64,000 nucleotides of DNA. Origin: Candidatus Krumholzibacteriota bacterium. Its GTDB lineage: Bacteria > Krumholzibacteriota > Krumholzibacteriia > Krumholzibacteriales > Krumholzibacteriaceae. Positions 24,110-36,808 of the stretch are shown here, in pieces (position 1 is the stretch's first letter; each line of letters starts with the position of its first letter). The translations under genes and the position numbers were made by a program. Location of the stretch: contig JAFGCX010000001.1 in NCBI GenBank assembly GCA_016932415.1, forward strand, positions 18,418 to 82,417, read 5' to 3'. The notes below the pieces were generated by a model, which was not told where the DNA came from, searched no databases, and saw only the letters and a list, made by a program, of their open reading frames with translations.

Positions 24110-24637
24110 TCATATCGTTTCGATGGTGATGTTGTCGTTGGTGTATATACAGATCTCCGAAGCGATTCTAAGTGCCTCGGCCACGATCTCCGCGGCCGGC
24201 AGTTTCGAGTGTTTTCTCAATGCCCTTGCCGCCGCCAGGGCGAAGGGACCTCCCGAGCCTATCGCGAGGATACCGTCATCCGGCTCGACGACATCCCCCC
24301 TTCCCGAGATTATAAGTGAATGTTTTGAATCTATCACTGCGAGGAGAGCTTCGAGATTTCGAAGCACCTTGTCGCTTCTCCATTCCTTTGCCGTCTCGAC
24401 GGCGGCTTTCATAAGATTATTATTGTACTGTTCGAGTTTTCCCTCAAACTTGGAAAAAAGGGTCATCGCGTCGGCGGTGCTTCCGGCAAATCCGGCAAGG
24501 ACCTGGCCATTGCCAAGGCTTCTGATCTTCTTAGCTCCGTGCTTGACTACCGTGGCTCCGAAAGTGACCTGTCCGTCTCCTCCGATGGCGACGTTTTTTC
24601 CTTCTCTCATGCCAAGAATCGTCGTTCCTTTAAACAT
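24110..24637 (-). CDS. hslV: HslV, proteolytic subunit of the HslUV protease
   Basis: Threonine peptidase with a proteasome-like fold. I place the start at the ATG at 24637 (MFKGTTILG): GGAGG lies just upstream and an upstream in-frame GTG is inside that site. Cleavage after a 4-residue propeptide would expose the catalytic Thr5, as in other HslV proteins with short propeptides. GDGQVTFG and the [14 protein letters not shown] segment are diagnostic. It forms a two-gene unit with hslU next to xerC, as in many bacteria. Confidence 0.96.
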
Positions 24638-29730: not shown

Positions 29731-32700
29731 CTATACAGCTTCCTTTCCGCAACACTTTTTATACTTTTTCCCGCTACCGCAGGGACACGGATCGTTTCTT
29801 CCTACTTTCGGCATATCGCGCTGTACAGGCTCCGCGATCTTCTGCGGCGGCGGGATCTGCCCGCCCTTAACCTGCCTGGATCCAGTGGTTTCAGGAGCCG
29901 CGCTACTCTTCGCGCTGCCGTAGGCATCGGTCACCTGGTGGATCGCCACTCCGGAACTTGCCACTTTATTCCTTTCATTCCTCGGGTCCCTGTCAAACCT
30001 GGCGTGAAAAAGTCCCCATAATATCGATCGGTCGATATCGTCCAGCATGTCAGAGAATAACTGGAATGCTTCCTGTTTATATTCGACAAGGGGATCCTTC
30101 TGGGCGTACGACCTGAAATGGATCCCTTCCTTGAGGTTGTCCAGTTCGCGAAGGTGATCCATCCATTTCTCATCTATACTCTGAAGCATGATCAATCGGC
30201 CCAGCTGACCGAGGATCTCGGCAGGTATCGCAGATTTCCTGATCTCATAAGCGGCTATCGCCGTGTCACGCAGATGATCGAGCAAGACCTGCTGGTCCTT
30301 GATCGAATTTTCCGAAAGCGATTCCACCTCGAACGGCACAAGAAACGTATTTTCAAGATCAGCCGTGGCGCCGGAAATATCCCATTCTTCAGGGCTGAGA
30401 TTTTCGGGAAGGAATCTCTCGGCGATATATCCTATGACGCTTTCCACAAGGTTCTTCACCATTTCATCTATATCTTCGACTTCTAGCATCTCGTTTCTTC
30501 TGCCGTATATGACCTCGCGCTGCTTGTTCATCACGTCGTCATACTCGAGAAGTCTCTTTCGGATCCCGAAGTTGTACATTTCGACGCGTTTCTGCGATTT
30601 CTCTATCGCCCGCGTTATAAAGGGGTGAGTTATGACCTCTCCCTCTTCGATCCCGAGCTTGTCCATCACCGTCGATATCCGTTCAGAACCGAAAAGCCTC
30701 ATAAGATCGTCTTCCAGGGATGTGAAGAACCTTGAAGATCCAGGATCTCCCTGCCTTCCGGCGCGTCCTCTGAGCTGACGGTCTATGCGTCTCGATTCGT
30801 GCCTCTCTGTCCCTATTATTTGCAGGCCGCAGGGCACATCCTCGGCGCAATCAGTTTTTTTGCCCGTATTCGGACATTCATCGCAGGCGCTGGGAGTCTC
30901 ACAGAGAATGCAGCATCTCTCGCATTGGACAATCTCCCTGTCGAGCTTTATATCGGTTCCTCTTCCAGCCATGTTGGTGGCTATAGTGACAGCTCCTTTT
31001 TTCCCGGCCAACGACACGATCTCGGCTTCACTCTGATGCTGTTTCGCGTTCAGCACGTTATGCGCGATGCCTTCTCTTTTAAGCATCCTGCTCAGCGTCT
31101 CAGAGACTTCCACGGTTACCGTTCCTACAAGTACGGGGAGCCCCTTTTCATTGAATCTTTTTATTTCCTCAAGAATAGCTTTGTATTTCTCTCTTTTTGT
31201 CCGGAATATGACGTCATCGTAATCAATTCTGCGAACAGGCTTGTTTGTCGGTATGACATTGACGTCAAGTTTATATATCTTGTGGAACTCCTCTTCCTCT
31301 GTTTCGGCCGTACCAGTCATTCCGGCGAGTTTCTCGTACATCCTGAAATAGTTCTGAAGGGTTATAGTCGCGAATGTCTGCGTCTCCCCCTCGATCCTGA
31401 CCTTCTCCTTCGCTTCCAGGGCCTGGTGAAGTCCGTCGCTGAATCTTCTGCCCGGCATCAATCTGCCTGTGAATTCATCGACGATCAACACCCGTCCGTC
31501 CTGAACGACGTACTCGACATCTTTTTCGAAGAGGGTGTAGGCTTTGAATAACTGCGAAAAACTGTGAAGTATCTCGCTTTTTTGAGCATAACTCCTGTAG
31601 GCAAGATCCTTTTTCCGGATACGTTCCTTTATATCGATCGACTCGTCAGATTCTATTTCCTTGATAATCAGGCTGAGATCGGGAAGGACGAACAACTCCT
31701 GATCCTCTACCGAAAGGACAGCCCGACCCTTGTCGGTAAGGTCTATAGTGTTCGATTTCTCGTCTATTACGAAATAGAGTTCCTCATCGAGCTCATGCAA
31801 TCTCTTCTCTCTCATGAAATCCGCTTCTGCCCTGAGCATCAGTTTTTCATACCCTGGTATTTTCCGCAGTTTCATGAATTTCTTGTTTTTCGGGTCTCCC
31901 CTCCTGGCCAGCAGAAGCTTCACTCCGATATCGTCGTCTTCCTCCCCTTCTACATCTTCCTGGATTTTTTCCAGATCGTTCATGAAATCATTTACCAGTC
32001 GCTTCTGCATGCGCACCAGGTTATCGACCTTGTTCCTTAGAAAAGCGAAATTCTCGTTTTTTGACGAGCCCTGGACAGGTCCCGATATGATCAGCGGCGT
32101 CCTTGCCTCATCGACCAGCACGCTGTCCACCTCGTCTACTATCGCGTAATAGTGATAAAGCTGGACCTGGTGCTCCTTCTGCATCTTCATGTTATCCCTG
32201 AGATAGTCAAAGCCGAATTCGTTGTTGGTACCGTAGATTATATCGCAACTGTAAACAGCTTTCTTCTCCTCTGGCGGCATATCGTTCTGAAGACATCCGA
32301 CTGTCAATCCGAGGAACCTGTATATCTCCCCCATCCACTCGGAATCCCTTTTCGCCAGATAATCGTTGACCGTGACCAGGTGAACGCCTTTTTTCACAAG
32401 AGCGTTGAGGTAGAGCGGCATGACCGCGACAAGGGTTTTGCCTTCCCCTGTCGCCATCTCCGATATCGAACCCTCGTGCAGGACGATCGCTCCGCCTATC
32501 TGAACGTCAAAAGGGACCATTTCCCAGGTGATATCATGCCCAACGACCTTCCAACTCTTGCCCAGATGCCTTCTGCACGCTTCATAGACCAGCCCGAAAG
32601 CCTCAGGCATTAACTCGTCAGTCGTCTCGCCCCCGGCAATCCTCTTTATGAATTCCCCGGTTTTTTCCGGAAACTTCTCGTCTGGAAGATCGGAGTATTT

Positions 32701-32799
32701 TTCAGCCCATTCCCTGACGGCTGCTATACCAGGTTCGAGCCTTTTCATCAGACGCGTCTTGCGATCTCCTACAAACTTGTTAAGAATATTTTTCAGCAA
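29731..32799 (-). CDS. secA: SecA, preprotein translocase ATPase, with Cys-rich insertion
   Basis: Motor of the general secretion pathway, 1022 residues. Walker A is [12 protein letters not shown], the DEAD-like motif is [20 protein letters not shown], and NMAGRGTDI and [23 protein letters not shown] are intact. The C-terminus ends in a SecB/ribosome-binding zinc motif ([14 protein letters not shown]). Unusual is a 32-residue insertion (626-657) with eight cysteines between NMAGRGTDI and [12 protein letters not shown] second long acidic insertion occurs near 280-300. The start is a TTG 8 nt after GGAGGT. It may head a long transcript reaching to 17 kb. Confidence 0.96.
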
Positions 32800-32823: not shown

Positions 32824-32852
32824 AACATAGTACACTCTCCGGCCATAATCAA
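32824..32852 (-). promoter_or_regulatory. Candidate sigma-70 promoter of secA
   Basis: Minus strand: TTGATT (32847-32852), 17-bp spacer, TATGTT (32824-32829). Transcription would begin near 32817, just before the GGAGGT ribosome site. The -10 is the same hexamer as at the rpsT promoter. Confidence 0.45.
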
Positions 32853-32924: not shown

Positions 32925-34862
32925 TCAGAGTTCTCCCTTGACAGAGACGGCATGCAGATATCCCTGATTTGACCCGAAAAATATCCTGTCGCCGTCCGTG
33001 GCCGGGGAGGAATAAACAGGAGATTCGATCTTGTACTCGCCCAAGAGACTGCCGGTCTTGATATCAATCGCATATACTTTTGAGTTATAAACTGTTACAA
33101 TGATCATATCATCCATTATCAGAGGCTTCGATCTTACTGCCCCTCCCAGATCAGCCTTCCAGGCGAGCCGGCCGTTGTATGTTATCGCGTAGAAGACTCC
33201 GTCTTCCGACCCTATATAAAGGTTTACCCCGTCAGTCTCTGGTTTTCCGCGCATCTTGCTGCCACCGGGGAACCTCCACATCAGGTGGCCGTTCGAGATG
33301 GAATAGGCATAGACGTACTTGTCGTCAGACCCGAAGAACACCAGGTCCTTATCGACAGCCATCAAGGGATTTGAATATATCCCTCCACCCGGTTTTACCC
33401 TCCATTCGATCCTTCCCGCCTGACTGAGCCTGACAAGCGATCCGTCAGTAGTCGCCGCTATGATGCAATCTTCCGATACTGCCGGGGACGCCCATATTCC
33501 GCTGCCCAGCTTTTCGATCCAGTTGCGCTTGCCGCCCGCAAGGTCAAGAGAGATAAGGTTCCCTTCCATCGTCCCTAGCACGACAGTCCCGCCCGTGATC
33601 CTCGGTGTCGTAATTATCTTTTCCTGCGAATCATAATTCCATAGCCTCTCGCCTGTCGAACGGTCGAGACGAAATATGTTGCCGGTATAATCAGCCCCAA
33701 TACACAGGGGGCCGCTGAAGAACGGTGAAGAGCCGACACCCTCCTCAGCTTTATATTTCCATCTTAACGTCCCGTCTGTTCCGTAAGAATATATATACGC
33801 GTCCCTGCATCCGAATACGATCTGCCCGTCGTCGACCGATGGAGATGATGTCACTGGAGCGTCGAATTTCCTTTTCCAGGATTCGACGAACTCCCCGGGG
33901 CGCATTACCCGGCCAGTATCCTTTACCGTGGGCTGATCCGCGACACTGTCACTTCCATCCTGATTACGCGTCTCGCTGCCTGCTGGCCCGGCAATATTTG
34001 TTTCCTCTTCAGGAGCTACAGTATTTTCATCCTGGACCGACAGGAGCGGTTCATCCCGCAATGTGTCCGACGTACGATACCTGTCGAACGGTTTAAATAT
34101 GAAAAGTATTGCGACTATTATTGCCAACCCACCCGTAATATAAGGTGCCTTGCTCCTGATCATGCTTCTACTCCTTGAATCTTTCGCGGTTGTTTTCGGG
34201 TCTCTTTCATCACCATCCCAGTGCATAACGGGGAAGGTCGTTTCCGAACCTGTTGAAATGATCTCCGGGTCAGTGAACTTTACAGAGGGGAAAAAAAGGT
34301 TGTCTCTGATCGACACGATATTCTGCCCTATGAATTCCTGGGACGGAGCAAAAACGAGAGTATGTCTCCCTTTTGCGATCCTGAACCTGTAAAGGCGAAA
34401 ATAATCATCGACGCTTTTCTCGAAGAGTTCTGCCTGAAAACGCTCTTTACCCACGGCGCTTTCTTTCAATCCGGGCAACGTCTTTACAGGTCCCTCGAAC
34501 TTTCTGGCAGAATCATAATAAAGTATCTCCGTGGCTTTACTGCAGAGAAGGCTGACCTCACGCCCTCTTCGAATCATGATGACGACCAACGATCCGGAAA
34601 GAGATTCTTCGCTGAACTCAAGGTTATCGACGGAAGCCGAGAAACTCTCGATCACCTTCTGAAAATATCGGGAAGGATCCCCCAGCCTTGAATTTGAAAG
34701 GGAAAGCCGGAAAAGCCTCTGGATCGCCTGTTCCGATTCCCTCTCCGGAGTGGAGAAAAAGACAAAAAACTCCTCACCGCGGGAATTGGTAGGGTTTTCA
34801 TGATATACGAACGATTCCCTGTCCTTATCGCTACCCTGGCAGATAAAACACGTATTTCTCAT
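32925..34862 (-). CDS. Membrane protein with N-terminal PP2C-like fold and PQQ beta-propeller
   Basis: Unrecognised 645-residue protein. The ATG at 34862 has GAGGTGG 6 nt upstream. Residues 1-200 are probably cytoplasmic; strand patterns such as GSLVVIMIRRGREVSLLCS and GRHTLVFAPSQEFIG resemble a PPM/PP2C phosphatase fold, but the metal-binding Asp motifs are absent, so it would be inactive. One membrane helix lies at about 239-257 (ITGGLAIIVAILFIF). A charged linker of ~55 residues leads to a C-terminal PQQ/BamB-like propeller (about 310-645) with repeats such as RLDRSTGERLWNYDS, YSISNGHLMWRFPG and AIDIKTGSLLGEYKI. The propeller would face the periplasm. It probably belongs with the J-domain and TPR genes upstream. 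Confidence 0.65.
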   Translation of the reverse strand: MRNTCFICQGSDKDRESFVYHENPTNSRGEEFFVFFSTPERESEQAIQRLFRLSLSNSRLGDPSRYFQKVIESFSASVDNLEFSEESLSGSLVVIMIRRGREVSLLCSKATEILYYDSARKFEGPVKTLPGLKESAVGKERFQAELFEKSVDDYFRLYRFRIAKGRHTLVFAPSQEFIGQNIVSIRDNLFFPSVKFTDPEIISTGSETTFPVMHWDGDERDPKTTAKDSRSRSMIRSKAPYITGGLAIIVAILFIFKPFDRYRTSDTLRDEPLLSVQDENTVAPEEETNIAGPAGSETRNQDGSDSVADQPTVKDTGRVMRPGEFVESWKRKFDAPVTSSPSVDDGQIVFGCRDAYIYSYGTDGTLRWKYKAEEGVGSSPFFSGPLCIGADYTGNIFRLDRSTGERLWNYDSQEKIITTPRITGGTVVLGTMEGNLISLDLAGGKRNWIEKLGSGIWASPAVSEDCIIAATTDGSLVRLSQAGRIEWRVKPGGGIYSNPLMAVDKDLVFFGSDDKYVYAYSISNGHLMWRFPGGSKMRGKPETDGVNLYIGSEDGVFYAITYNGRLAWKADLGGAVRSKPLIMDDMIIVTVYNSKVYAIDIKTGSLLGEYKIESPVYSSPATDGDRIFFGSNQGYLHAVSVKGEL

Positions 34863-34954
34863 ATTCAACCACCTCACGACGTGACCCTAGCCGTAAAATG
34901 GCAAAAAATCAATACAAAACAACGGGATTTCCATTACTCTCGGGCGAGGAGATC

Positions 34955-35638
34955 TCAGGAATGACTGAAGATGTTCTTAAAGGCAGAGAAAGCTTTGGTG
35001 ATCGGCCCAGTCTCCACTTCTCCGGAATCTGACAGTTTTGAAAGGAATTTCTTCGCTATGGGGTTCTGCGGATCCCATTTCAGGGCATCCCTGAAATACT
35101 TGACAGCCTGGTTTTTCAGTCCCGCCTTAAAATAGACGAATCCAAGGTTGGCGTGATAGTCCGCGTTATAGAACTCCATCTGAATCGCTTTTTTGCAGTA
35201 ATCGCGCGCTTCATGAAGATTTGAATTCGTCATCGCCAGGCAGAATCCATACCAGCTCTGATATGAAGGATTGCCCGGGATGAATTTCAGGGCCGATTTC
35301 AGCAGAAGCGTGGCTTTTTCGTAATTTCCGCTTCTCATCGCTTCTTTTGCCTGTACAAAGGCGAGCGACGCGGATTTCAGATCCTTTTCCTTGATCGCGG
35401 CAGTATCGCTGGAACTGACCTTCTGTTTTCGCAGGGTCTCGTTATATTCGCTTCTTTTTTTCTTGTCGCTCAGTACTGAGTAAGCTTCGTTGATAAGCTG
35501 GAAGATCTTTTTCTTGTCGGGATCGTTATCATTTACGTCAGGATGGCACAGCTTTGCCAGCCTGAAATAGTTCTTCTTGATCTCATCGTCAGTCGAAGTC
35601 GGTTGTGATTCCAAAACCCTGTAATAATCTTTCACCAC
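34955..35638 (-). CDS. J-domain protein with TPR repeats
   Basis: A 227-residue protein. Residues 3-66 form a J domain with HPD at 32-34 (LCHPDVNDND), which should stimulate a DnaK-type Hsp70. About 90-205 hold TPR repeats (AMRSGNYEKATLLLKSAL, YHANLGFVYFKAGLKNQAVKYFRDALKWDP). There is no G/F or zinc region, so it is not DnaJ itself but a specialised co-chaperone. The start is GTG, with AGAGGT upstream, 6 nt after the preceding TPR gene; the two are surely cotranscribed. The client is unknown. Confidence 0.8.
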   Translation of the reverse strand: MVKDYYRVLESQPTSTDDEIKKNYFRLAKLCHPDVNDNDPDKKKIFQLINEAYSVLSDKKKRSEYNETLRKQKVSSSDTAAIKEKDLKSASLAFVQAKEAMRSGNYEKATLLLKSALKFIPGNPSYQSWYGFCLAMTNSNLHEARDYCKKAIQMEFYNADYHANLGFVYFKAGLKNQAVKYFRDALKWDPQNPIAKKFLSKLSDSGEVETGPITKAFSAFKNIFSHS

Positions 35639-35644
35639 TGTGAT

Positions 35645-36586
35645 CTACCTCTTGCTCGGTTCAGGCTGAAGTTCGTCGTAAAGATTAATCGCCAGTTCAT
35701 TCGCCGGATCAGCTTTAAGGATCAACTTCAGATGTTTTATCGCTTCTTCCGCGGAACCCTTTTCATACAATGTCAAAGCTATATTCATCCGGGCTTTTAA
35801 ATATTCCGGGTTGATCTTCAGCGCCGTTTCGAATTCCATCATCGCGTCATCTATCATCCCGGCGTTCGCGTAGGCGATGCCGAGGAGATTGTGAAGGTCG
35901 GGATAGTCGGGATTAAGCGAGAGCGCCTTCTTCATCTCAGCCATAGCCGATTCGTAATCGCCGGACTGGATCGATTCCAGCGCGATCTGCTTGCTTATCT
36001 GCGAGGATGACGGCCTTTCCTCAAGCAATCTGTCAAAGAGGTTCAGGATCTCGTCCTCTTCCTCGTCCGCCTTGACTTTTAGAATCAGGGTATTAAGATG
36101 GGACTTGAAAAAATTCGGTACCGAGGACAGGCTTTCTCTTAGCTGTTCGATCGTTCTGTTGAAATTACCATCCGAATAGTAGCTCCTGGCGAGCATTATC
36201 CTGGCTTTGAAGTAATTCGGGTTTATCGCCAGAGCCCTTTTAATGCTTTCCCGGGCATTTATCCTGTTTCCACCCGTCTCGTACATCATTCCAAGCCGGT
36301 AATGGACATCGGCGTACCGAGGCTGGAGCTCTATCGCTTTTTCCAGCTCCCTGGCCGATTCATTGAACTTTCCATCTTTTTCCAGTTCGATCGAATACTC
36401 CATGTACGCTTCGACGATATACATCCTGAGAAGTTCCTGGTCTTTACCTCCGACCTCGCCGTCTTTTCTTGAGAGATGGCTTTCGAATTCCCTGCAGGCC
36501 TTTTTGTATTCACCCTTGTTCAGATATGCAAGTGCTTTTTTAAGATGACTTTTGGGCATAAAACCGGCGAATCCGTCTATAAACAT
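35645..36586 (-). CDS. TPR repeat protein
   Basis: A 313-residue tetratricopeptide protein without signal peptide or membrane segment. At least six TPR units can be followed, for example SARELEKAIELQPRYADVHY, ARESIKRALAINPNYFKARI, AMAEMKKALSLNPDYPDLHN and DAMMEFETALKINPEYLKAR. The ATG at 36586 has GAGGT 8 nt upstream; an upstream in-frame start would cross the candidate promoter region. It is the first gene of the TPR/J-domain/PQQ set and follows a candidate sigma-54 promoter (36648-36665). It is probably a scaffold; the partner is not evident. Confidence 0.8.
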   Translation of the reverse strand: MFIDGFAGFMPKSHLKKALAYLNKGEYKKACREFESHLSRKDGEVGGKDQELLRMYIVEAYMEYSIELEKDGKFNESARELEKAIELQPRYADVHYRLGMMYETGGNRINARESIKRALAINPNYFKARIMLARSYYSDGNFNRTIEQLRESLSSVPNFFKSHLNTLILKVKADEEEDEILNLFDRLLEERPSSSQISKQIALESIQSGDYESAMAEMKKALSLNPDYPDLHNLLGIAYANAGMIDDAMMEFETALKINPEYLKARMNIALTLYEKGSAEEAIKHLKLILKADPANELAINLYDELQPEPSKR

Positions 36587-36647
36587 ACTGTTGACCTCTC
36601 GTTGTCTATCCGGCGAGAATGTAATTCCACAAACCCAAAGCCGGTAC

Positions 36648-36665
36648 AAGCAAGTCGCAGGCCAA
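36648..36665 (-). promoter_or_regulatory. Candidate sigma-54 (-24/-12) promoter
   Basis: On the minus strand TTGGC, a 7-nt spacer and TTGCTT give the exact TGGC-N7-TTGC geometry of RpoN promoters. Start of transcription would be near 36636, some 50 nt before the TPR gene ATG. The window encodes three sigma-54 activators, so RpoN must be in the genome. Such an 8-base pattern is expected about twice by chance in 128 kb of strand, so position and the dyad upstream matter. Confidence 0.5.
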
Positions 36666-36719
36666 TCATTGAATATCGCTTAAGTTATTTATCCAGTGGA
36701 GAATAGGTGGTGGAATCAT

Positions 36720-36736
36720 CATCCTGAATCAGGATG
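36720..36736. promoter_or_regulatory. Enhancer-like dyad upstream of the sigma-54 promoter
   Basis: A perfect 17-bp palindrome (arms CATCCTGA and TCAGGATG around a central A) is centred about 90 bp upstream of the predicted sigma-54 start, where bacterial enhancer-binding proteins usually bind. It is not followed by a T-run and its loop is too short for a terminator of the upstream guaA gene. Confidence 0.45.
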
Positions 36737-36808
36737 TTATGCTGGTCTGTATGCGGGTCTCGCAATCAAACTGTTCAAGGCAGTCGCATTTTGCGATCTG
36801 TTCAGGTA

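Follow-up and report, generated by a model that had tools for sequence, protein, structure and literature searches.

Gene content and protein architecture

The stretch of DNA analyzed here (64,000 nt, referred to as the window) comes from a genome of Candidatus Krumholzibacteriota, a phylum placed within the FCB group. Between guaA and secA it carries a set of three minus-strand genes, separated by gaps of 6 nt and 92 nt, which encode a tetratricopeptide repeat protein (TPR), a J-domain protein with tetratricopeptide repeats (J-TPR), and a membrane-spanning protein with a PQQ-type propeller (the PQQ protein). The families of the class are numbered f1, the window genome's own, to f8, and close relatives carry the names Candidatus Krumholzibacteriota and, in some cases, Latescibacterota. 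An earlier reading, made from the sequence only, had guessed at the FCB group and placed three such genes here, and the open reading frame coordinates agree with it, including the exact 92-nt gap. The domain content it proposed was likewise recovered with Pfam (TPR; DnaJ with TPR; PQQ_2, E 3.1e-37), and the single-pass topology it assigned to the PQQ protein is matched by one hydrophobic segment. No signal peptide was seen in the TPR protein.

The cytoplasmic N-terminal domain of the PQQ protein was modeled with AlphaFold from 24 relatives (predicted local distance difference test score, pLDDT, 82; predicted template modeling score, pTM, 0.80), and its folding as PP2C, as the sequence-only reading had supposed, is confirmed by this model together with a structure search of the PDB (Foldseek, VIA-align). 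The top match was 2pk0 (Z 11.8, 185 residues, root-mean-square deviation 3.7 A), and the best 50 matches were all PP2C-fold proteins (50/50), one of them being the pseudophosphatase TAB1 (Z 11.3). The strands and helices of the domain also follow one another in an order that corresponds one-to-one with an ordinary PP2C from its own clade. This kinship is recognized from the fold alone, because sequence profiles failed at every level: Pfam matched none of the 24 members to PP2C, or credibly to any other family, PDB sequence profiles gave no PP2C match, and hhalign against PP2Cs of the same clade returned a probability under 1%. The PDB sequence matches that did appear (E 0.8-1) are to unrelated proteins and were dismissed as chance. 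The f1 and f7 versions of the domain are homologous to one another (hhalign 97%, E 3e-10).

The metal-binding acids of the domain look lost, which would make it a pseudophosphatase. At the motif positions, which were assigned by topology (strand order) and not from superposed coordinates, the window protein has S37 T38 for DG, CSK for GDS and S172 Q173 for SDG, with no DN. The f7 and f8 copies retain one D at the first metal motif, and YxE and QxxLF are invariant. By hydropathy, a single transmembrane segment lies at the equivalent place in the window protein and the relatives examined, with the propeller C-terminal to it. The eight propeller repeats were counted by eye from the sequence. Matches of the propeller to PDB sequences include designed PQQ-like propellers, AfsK/MASPK (7eq5, 7dxn), BamB and, weakly, PERK (E 0.002). 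The protein is none of the named families tested, failing the cut-offs for PQQ-dependent dehydrogenases (partial matches only, 65.9 bits against 480), the BamB equivalog (147.2 against 285.2) and AfsK (84.9 against 1300, propeller only).

J-TPR has a clear J domain (PF00226, DnaJ, E 4.9e-22) whose HPD motif is invariant in 22 copies, with a DnaJ equivalog score of 66.8 bits, from the J domain only, against a cut-off of 377. It lacks the parts that define DnaJ classes A and B (G/F region, zinc finger, and C-terminal domains) and has tetratricopeptide repeats in their place, and is therefore a class C J protein. In its model (pLDDT 87), a helix at residues 212-224 stands apart from the repeats, with low confidence in that helix. 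This C-terminal segment is of the type G(P/G)(I/L)xx(L/F)xxx(K/R)xx(F/L), whilst TPR begins with a conserved segment of the type MF(I/L)xRFxxx(L/I)PK that, in almost every copy, is both hydrophobic and basic (moment 0.34-0.60) and is possibly a membrane-binding helix. Both ends are amphipathic and mostly basic, with hydrophobic moments of 0.34-0.74, and may attach the two soluble proteins to the membrane.

Conservation of the gene set across the class

The order TPR, J-TPR, PQQ, secA is kept in four families (f1, f2, f7, and f8), and co-occurrence of the three genes, expected if the sequence-only reading described a genuine set, therefore extends well beyond the window genome. Since the genes recur in the same order across the class, this is no chance arrangement. 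The TPR gene is present in f1, f2, f3, f6, f7, and f8, and the PQQ gene in f1, f2, f3, f7, and f8. All f6 genomes (4/4) have TPR, J-TPR, and secA with no PQQ at this locus. Within f3, genome G029 carries TPR, then a 165-residue J-TPR homolog (L172:8136-8630) with tetratricopeptide repeats but no J domain, and then PQQ, and genome G025 carries TPR and PQQ but lacks J-TPR. In f4 and f5 none of the three genes stands before secA, and the flanks are retained. Evolution can therefore separate the components: TPR is retained most consistently, and the J domain can be lost by itself. As for secA, it was found in 58/58 genomes, and it comes after the set in every genome that has the set on a contig extending that far.

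In G004 (L102 3240-5852), J-TPR and PQQ form an in-frame fusion of 871 aa, from which the usual intergenic gap and promoter are gone. An 875-aa candidate fusion in G019 was rejected, its upstream extension being in another frame, and G004 is the only true in-frame fusion.

The surroundings of the set vary. In many relatives the interval from guaA to TPR holds genes for a lytic transglycosylase bearing tetratricopeptide repeats and for an NHL-repeat protein (e.g., L027:6551-10119); the window genome has neither gene at this place (36587-36808), and in G001, from the same genus, the transglycosylase is present. A gene for a dolichol/phytol-kinase-like membrane protein, a label assigned by eye with no Pfam match, lies directly 5' of TPR in some f7 genomes (L082) and 5' of secA in f4 (L174:12436-13008).

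Predicted promoters and operon structure

TPR and J-TPR are spaced 5-22 nt apart in 32/33 loci and 41 nt apart in one, and are predicted to form one tight operon, with PQQ as a separately started gene. A sigma-54 (-24/-12) promoter element is predicted upstream of TPR, where the pattern TGGC-N7-TTGC occurs in 30/35 loci, compared with 0.13 expected over those 35. The f7 matches were discounted, as they are codons for LGLIIA in the dolichol-kinase-like gene where it is intact and otherwise resemble its remnants. After their removal, the pattern is found in 27/27 f1, f2, and f6 genomes, between positions -58 and -97 relative to the start of TPR, with a variable spacer, as should be expected for a true sigma-54 promoter. 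Two f3 matches, around 490-580 nt 5' of TPR, lie outside this count. Genome-wide, the strict pattern matches only twice in the window genome, and one of the two matches is the TPR site; this site is among the few strict matches in 9/10 genomes. A second TGGC-N7-TTGC match in the window, at 24495-24509 on the minus strand near hslV, is possibly due to chance.

The sigma factor gene rpoN is present in 58/58 genomes, and the element agrees with the published sigma-54 consensus tGGcacg/tTGCt (PMC4641369). Sigma-54 regulons often show an envelope theme (PMC4641369), and in this clade the other sigma-54 sites that recur lie upstream of genes whose predicted products share such a theme, namely an SPFH/Band-7 (YdjI-like) gene, pilM, divIVA, a lipid A acyltransferase gene, lptC, and a lipoprotein gene. 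These sites are at loci L223, L236, L244, L252, L258, and L264, and the lipoprotein is of the Cys type with an Ig-like look.

A different promoter class is predicted for PQQ. A sigma-70-like match in the gap between J-TPR and PQQ was found in 16/16 f1 and f2 genomes tested, of which 15 share one position near -49/-26, compared with 2.3 expected, and f7 has TTGACA-N17/18-TTA-type sites at the equivalent position. Similarly, secA has its own promoter-like site in 21/23 genomes, compared with 3.1 expected. The set is no simple single operon, because TPR and J-TPR share the sigma-54 element while PQQ has a sigma-70-like promoter in the gap, and one operon as the sole arrangement of all three genes was rejected on account of this conserved promoter. 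The question of cotranscription, which the sequence-only reading had left open on seeing the gap, thus has a partial answer: PQQ is probably able to start alone, and read-through from TPR/J-TPR into PQQ may still occur.

Table 1. Features of the gene set and its downstream neighbor, in window coordinates.
Feature	Position	Strand	Description
TPR protein	35645..36586	-	313 aa; Pfam TPR_2, E 3.2e-31
J-TPR protein	34955..35638	-	227 aa, GTG start; J domain (HPD at 32-34), ~3.5 tetratricopeptide repeats, C-terminal amphipathic helix
PQQ protein	32925..34862	-	645 aa, ATG start; pseudo-PP2C domain, transmembrane segment, acidic linker, eight-repeat PQQ propeller
Pseudo-PP2C domain, cytoplasmic	34206..34862	-	Residues 1-219 of PQQ protein; AlphaFold model and structure search
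Single transmembrane segment	34086..34142	-	Residues 241-259 of PQQ protein; hydropathy maximum
PQQ-type propeller, periplasmic	32928..33887	-	Residues 326-645, eight W-motif repeats; PQQ_2 and Beta-prop_ACSF4
Sigma-54 (-24/-12) promoter element	36650..36664	-	TGGCCTGCGACTTGC; upstream of TPR gene; predicted
PQQ promoter, sigma-70-like	34884..34912	-	TTGATT-N17-TAGGGT; in J-TPR/PQQ gap; predicted
secA promoter, sigma-70-like	32824..32852	-	TTGATT-N17-TATGTT; predicted
secA	29731..32799	-	Constant downstream neighbor; context, no claimed part of the set

Candidate Hsp70 partners

Two J-domain genes only were found in the window genome, dnaJ (beside one dnaK) and J-TPR, together with two full-length dnaK genes (L296, L297: G000:C20:43780-45558, G000:C23:12774-14558). 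A single DnaK match was found in 22/22 genomes of f3, f4, and f5, the families without an intact J-TPR, and two matches in 25/35 genomes with J-TPR. In the DnaK tree, one lineage, present in nearly all families and without an adjacent dnaJ, is separate from the dnaJ-linked copies, which occur in f1, f2, f6, f7, and f8, the J-TPR families; f3 has one dnaJ-linked dnaK, on its own branch of the tree. At the level of families, a pairing of J-TPR with the second DnaK is suggestive.

Proposed function and alternatives

Tentatively, and with somewhat less than even confidence, the set is explained here as a membrane-associated, Hsp70-recruiting adaptor together with a pseudophosphatase/propeller receptor, serving the cell envelope. 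The analysis establishes the anatomy of the set, which is well supported, together with the fold, the conservation, the promoter elements, the separability of the parts, and one J-TPR/PQQ fusion; membrane binding, DnaK recruitment, contacts among the proteins, a client or signal, and a direction of signaling we infer. TPR and J-TPR, two partners in the cytoplasm that the cell would make under sigma-54 control, are probably held at the inner membrane by their short amphipathic ends, and the J domain of J-TPR would bring DnaK there. The separately transcribed PQQ protein would be their transmembrane partner, with its catalytically dead PP2C domain as a cytoplasmic docking platform for the soluble proteins and its propeller, on the periplasmic side, binding a client or ligand of the envelope. 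The envelope sensor recruiting DnaK that the sequence-only reading had suggested is plausible and has gained some indirect support.

Several observations argue for the adaptor: the gene order kept across four families, the 5-22 nt between TPR and J-TPR in nearly all genomes, the invariant HPD in the sole J protein found besides DnaJ in the window genome, and the G004 fusion, which removes the intergenic gap. It is further supported by the sigma-54 element throughout three families, with other strong sites of the clade preceding envelope genes, by the amphipathic ends of both soluble proteins, by the joining of a PP2C fold to a transmembrane segment and a propeller beyond the membrane, and by the DnaK counts.

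There are, however, points that weigh against the adaptor. The three proteins need not act together, because the J domain is dispensable in f3 (J-less in G029, with no J-TPR in G025) and PQQ is missing at this locus in f6, and contacts among them are deduced rather than directly observed. The promoter class of PQQ differs from that of TPR/J-TPR, and the hydrophobic moments of the terminal segments give modest z-scores against shuffles (mostly 1-3, one below 0). The link between DnaK number and J-TPR is clade-structured, reflecting perhaps one to three events, with some of the metagenome-assembled genomes (MAGs) incomplete, and a strict pairing with the second DnaK was rejected, as G007 and G020 carry J-TPR but a single DnaK. 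The G004 fusion rests on a single 61%-complete MAG, and the whole chromosomal stretch is syntenic, so that adjacency is weaker as evidence.

This synteny leads to the strongest rival, which is somewhat unlikely, that only the gene order is inherited, with TPR and J-TPR as one functional unit and the PQQ protein and SecA serving separate purposes within a housekeeping region that is itself syntenic. Genes including guaA, purH, purC, secA, and topA are likewise syntenic, PQQ and secA each have a promoter of their own, f6 lacks PQQ at this locus, and some of f3 lacks J-TPR, all of which would fit such a neighborhood without joint function. It does not, however, account well for the in-frame J-TPR/PQQ fusion, for the nearly constant intergenic distances, or for f4 and f5, in which all three genes are gone from the gap before secA though the flanks remain.

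The constant place before secA, including in f6 where J-TPR directly precedes it, suggests instead a role in export, with J-TPR, TPR, and DnaK feeding presecretory or membrane proteins to SecA/SecYEG in place of SecB, and the PQQ protein marking or monitoring the translocon. SecB is indeed absent in 29/30 genomes tested, but it is absent from most phyla, so this says little, and the f4 and f5 genomes are also without SecB where tested (one weak match) and yet lack the set. The separate promoter of secA also weighs against this explanation, which is unlikely overall.

A bolder version of the adaptor is a transmembrane proteostasis receptor, in which the outer PQQ-propeller sensor, via the inner pseudo-PP2C platform, would control the placement of DnaK by a dedicated membrane J protein, with one of the two DnaK paralogs dedicated to it; this IRE1/PERK-like layout, made from different signaling parts, is distinctly unlikely and is offered by analogy. 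It is improbable that J-TPR is instead a membrane-remodeling co-chaperone, assembling and disassembling with DnaK a membrane coat (PspA/Vipp1-like ESCRT-III with an SPFH protein resembling YdjI), much like CDJ2-HSP70B acting on chloroplast VIPP1. In favor of this, one of the genes that recurrently follow a sigma-54 site in the clade encodes a YdjI-like SPFH protein, YdjI in B. subtilis connects PspA with the membrane (PMC8581546), and CDJ2-HSP70-Vipp1 offers a precedent (PMC13051332). Against it, the SPFH genes are located at other places in the genome and are linked to the set only through regulation. An active signaling phosphatase, dephosphorylating targets in response to the propeller, has the PP2C fold in its favor but is highly improbable, given Ser, Thr, Gln or other residues at the metal-binding acidic positions of the window protein (by matched secondary-structure elements), the missing PP2C sequence signature, and the ordinary PP2Cs encoded elsewhere in the genome. 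A defense system was rejected, the PADLOC matches being spurious only.

Relation to known systems

The nearest layout is that of the AfsK/MASPK-type kinases, which like the PQQ protein cross the membrane once and join an extracytoplasmic PQQ-type propeller to a cytoplasmic signaling fold; that fold is a Ser/Thr kinase, whereas the PQQ protein has a degenerate PP2C instead. By analogy of layout only, IRE1 and PERK also compare, with a PQQ-propeller-related sensor beyond the membrane and a cytoplasmic signaling domain, and the IRE1 luminal domain derives from a PQQ propeller (PMC3797127). The PQQ protein, however, has no kinase or nuclease domain, and the periplasm of bacteria is not expected to contain an Hsp70. 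BamB shares the eight-repeat PQQ-type propeller facing the periplasm but is a lipoprotein, whereas the PQQ protein spans the membrane by an internal segment after a 240-residue N-terminal part.

TAB1, which acts as a binding platform, and other PP2C pseudophosphatases have, like the window domain, a PP2C fold without the catalytic acids. Between TAB1 and the window domain there is, however, no detectable sequence relation, and the latter is fused to a transmembrane segment and a propeller. J-TPR resembles class C J proteins such as DNAJC3/P58IPK in having a J domain with HPD and tetratricopeptide repeats, which in DNAJC3 come before the J domain. It is 24-35% identical to N-extended bacterial J-TPR proteins (L122-L171), which are widespread in Acidobacteria, Myxococcota, and Nitrospirae. 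Unlike the window protein, these mostly have a long N-terminal extension, and none showed TPR, PQQ, or secA neighbors.

Every fold of the set is known already, and it is the combination with predicted sigma-54 control that appears to be new. No named system with the TPR/J-TPR/pseudo-PP2C-transmembrane-PQQ set was found in the paper library searched, within which the view of the sequence-only reading that no such system has been named holds, and neither the pseudo-PP2C/transmembrane/PQQ-propeller architecture nor its association with TPR, J-TPR, and sigma-54 control was found in the profile libraries or papers searched.

To our knowledge, few J proteins dedicated to the bacterial envelope and few bacterial pseudophosphatases have been described. 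The set would join one of each to a periplasmic propeller and to predicted sigma-54 control, in a phylum whose envelope biology has scarcely been studied. If it is the proposed adaptor, membrane localization, a choice of one or the other DnaK paralog, and docking at the pseudo-PP2C domain would be expected, and the families that have lost PQQ, the J domain, or everything provide natural partial experiments.

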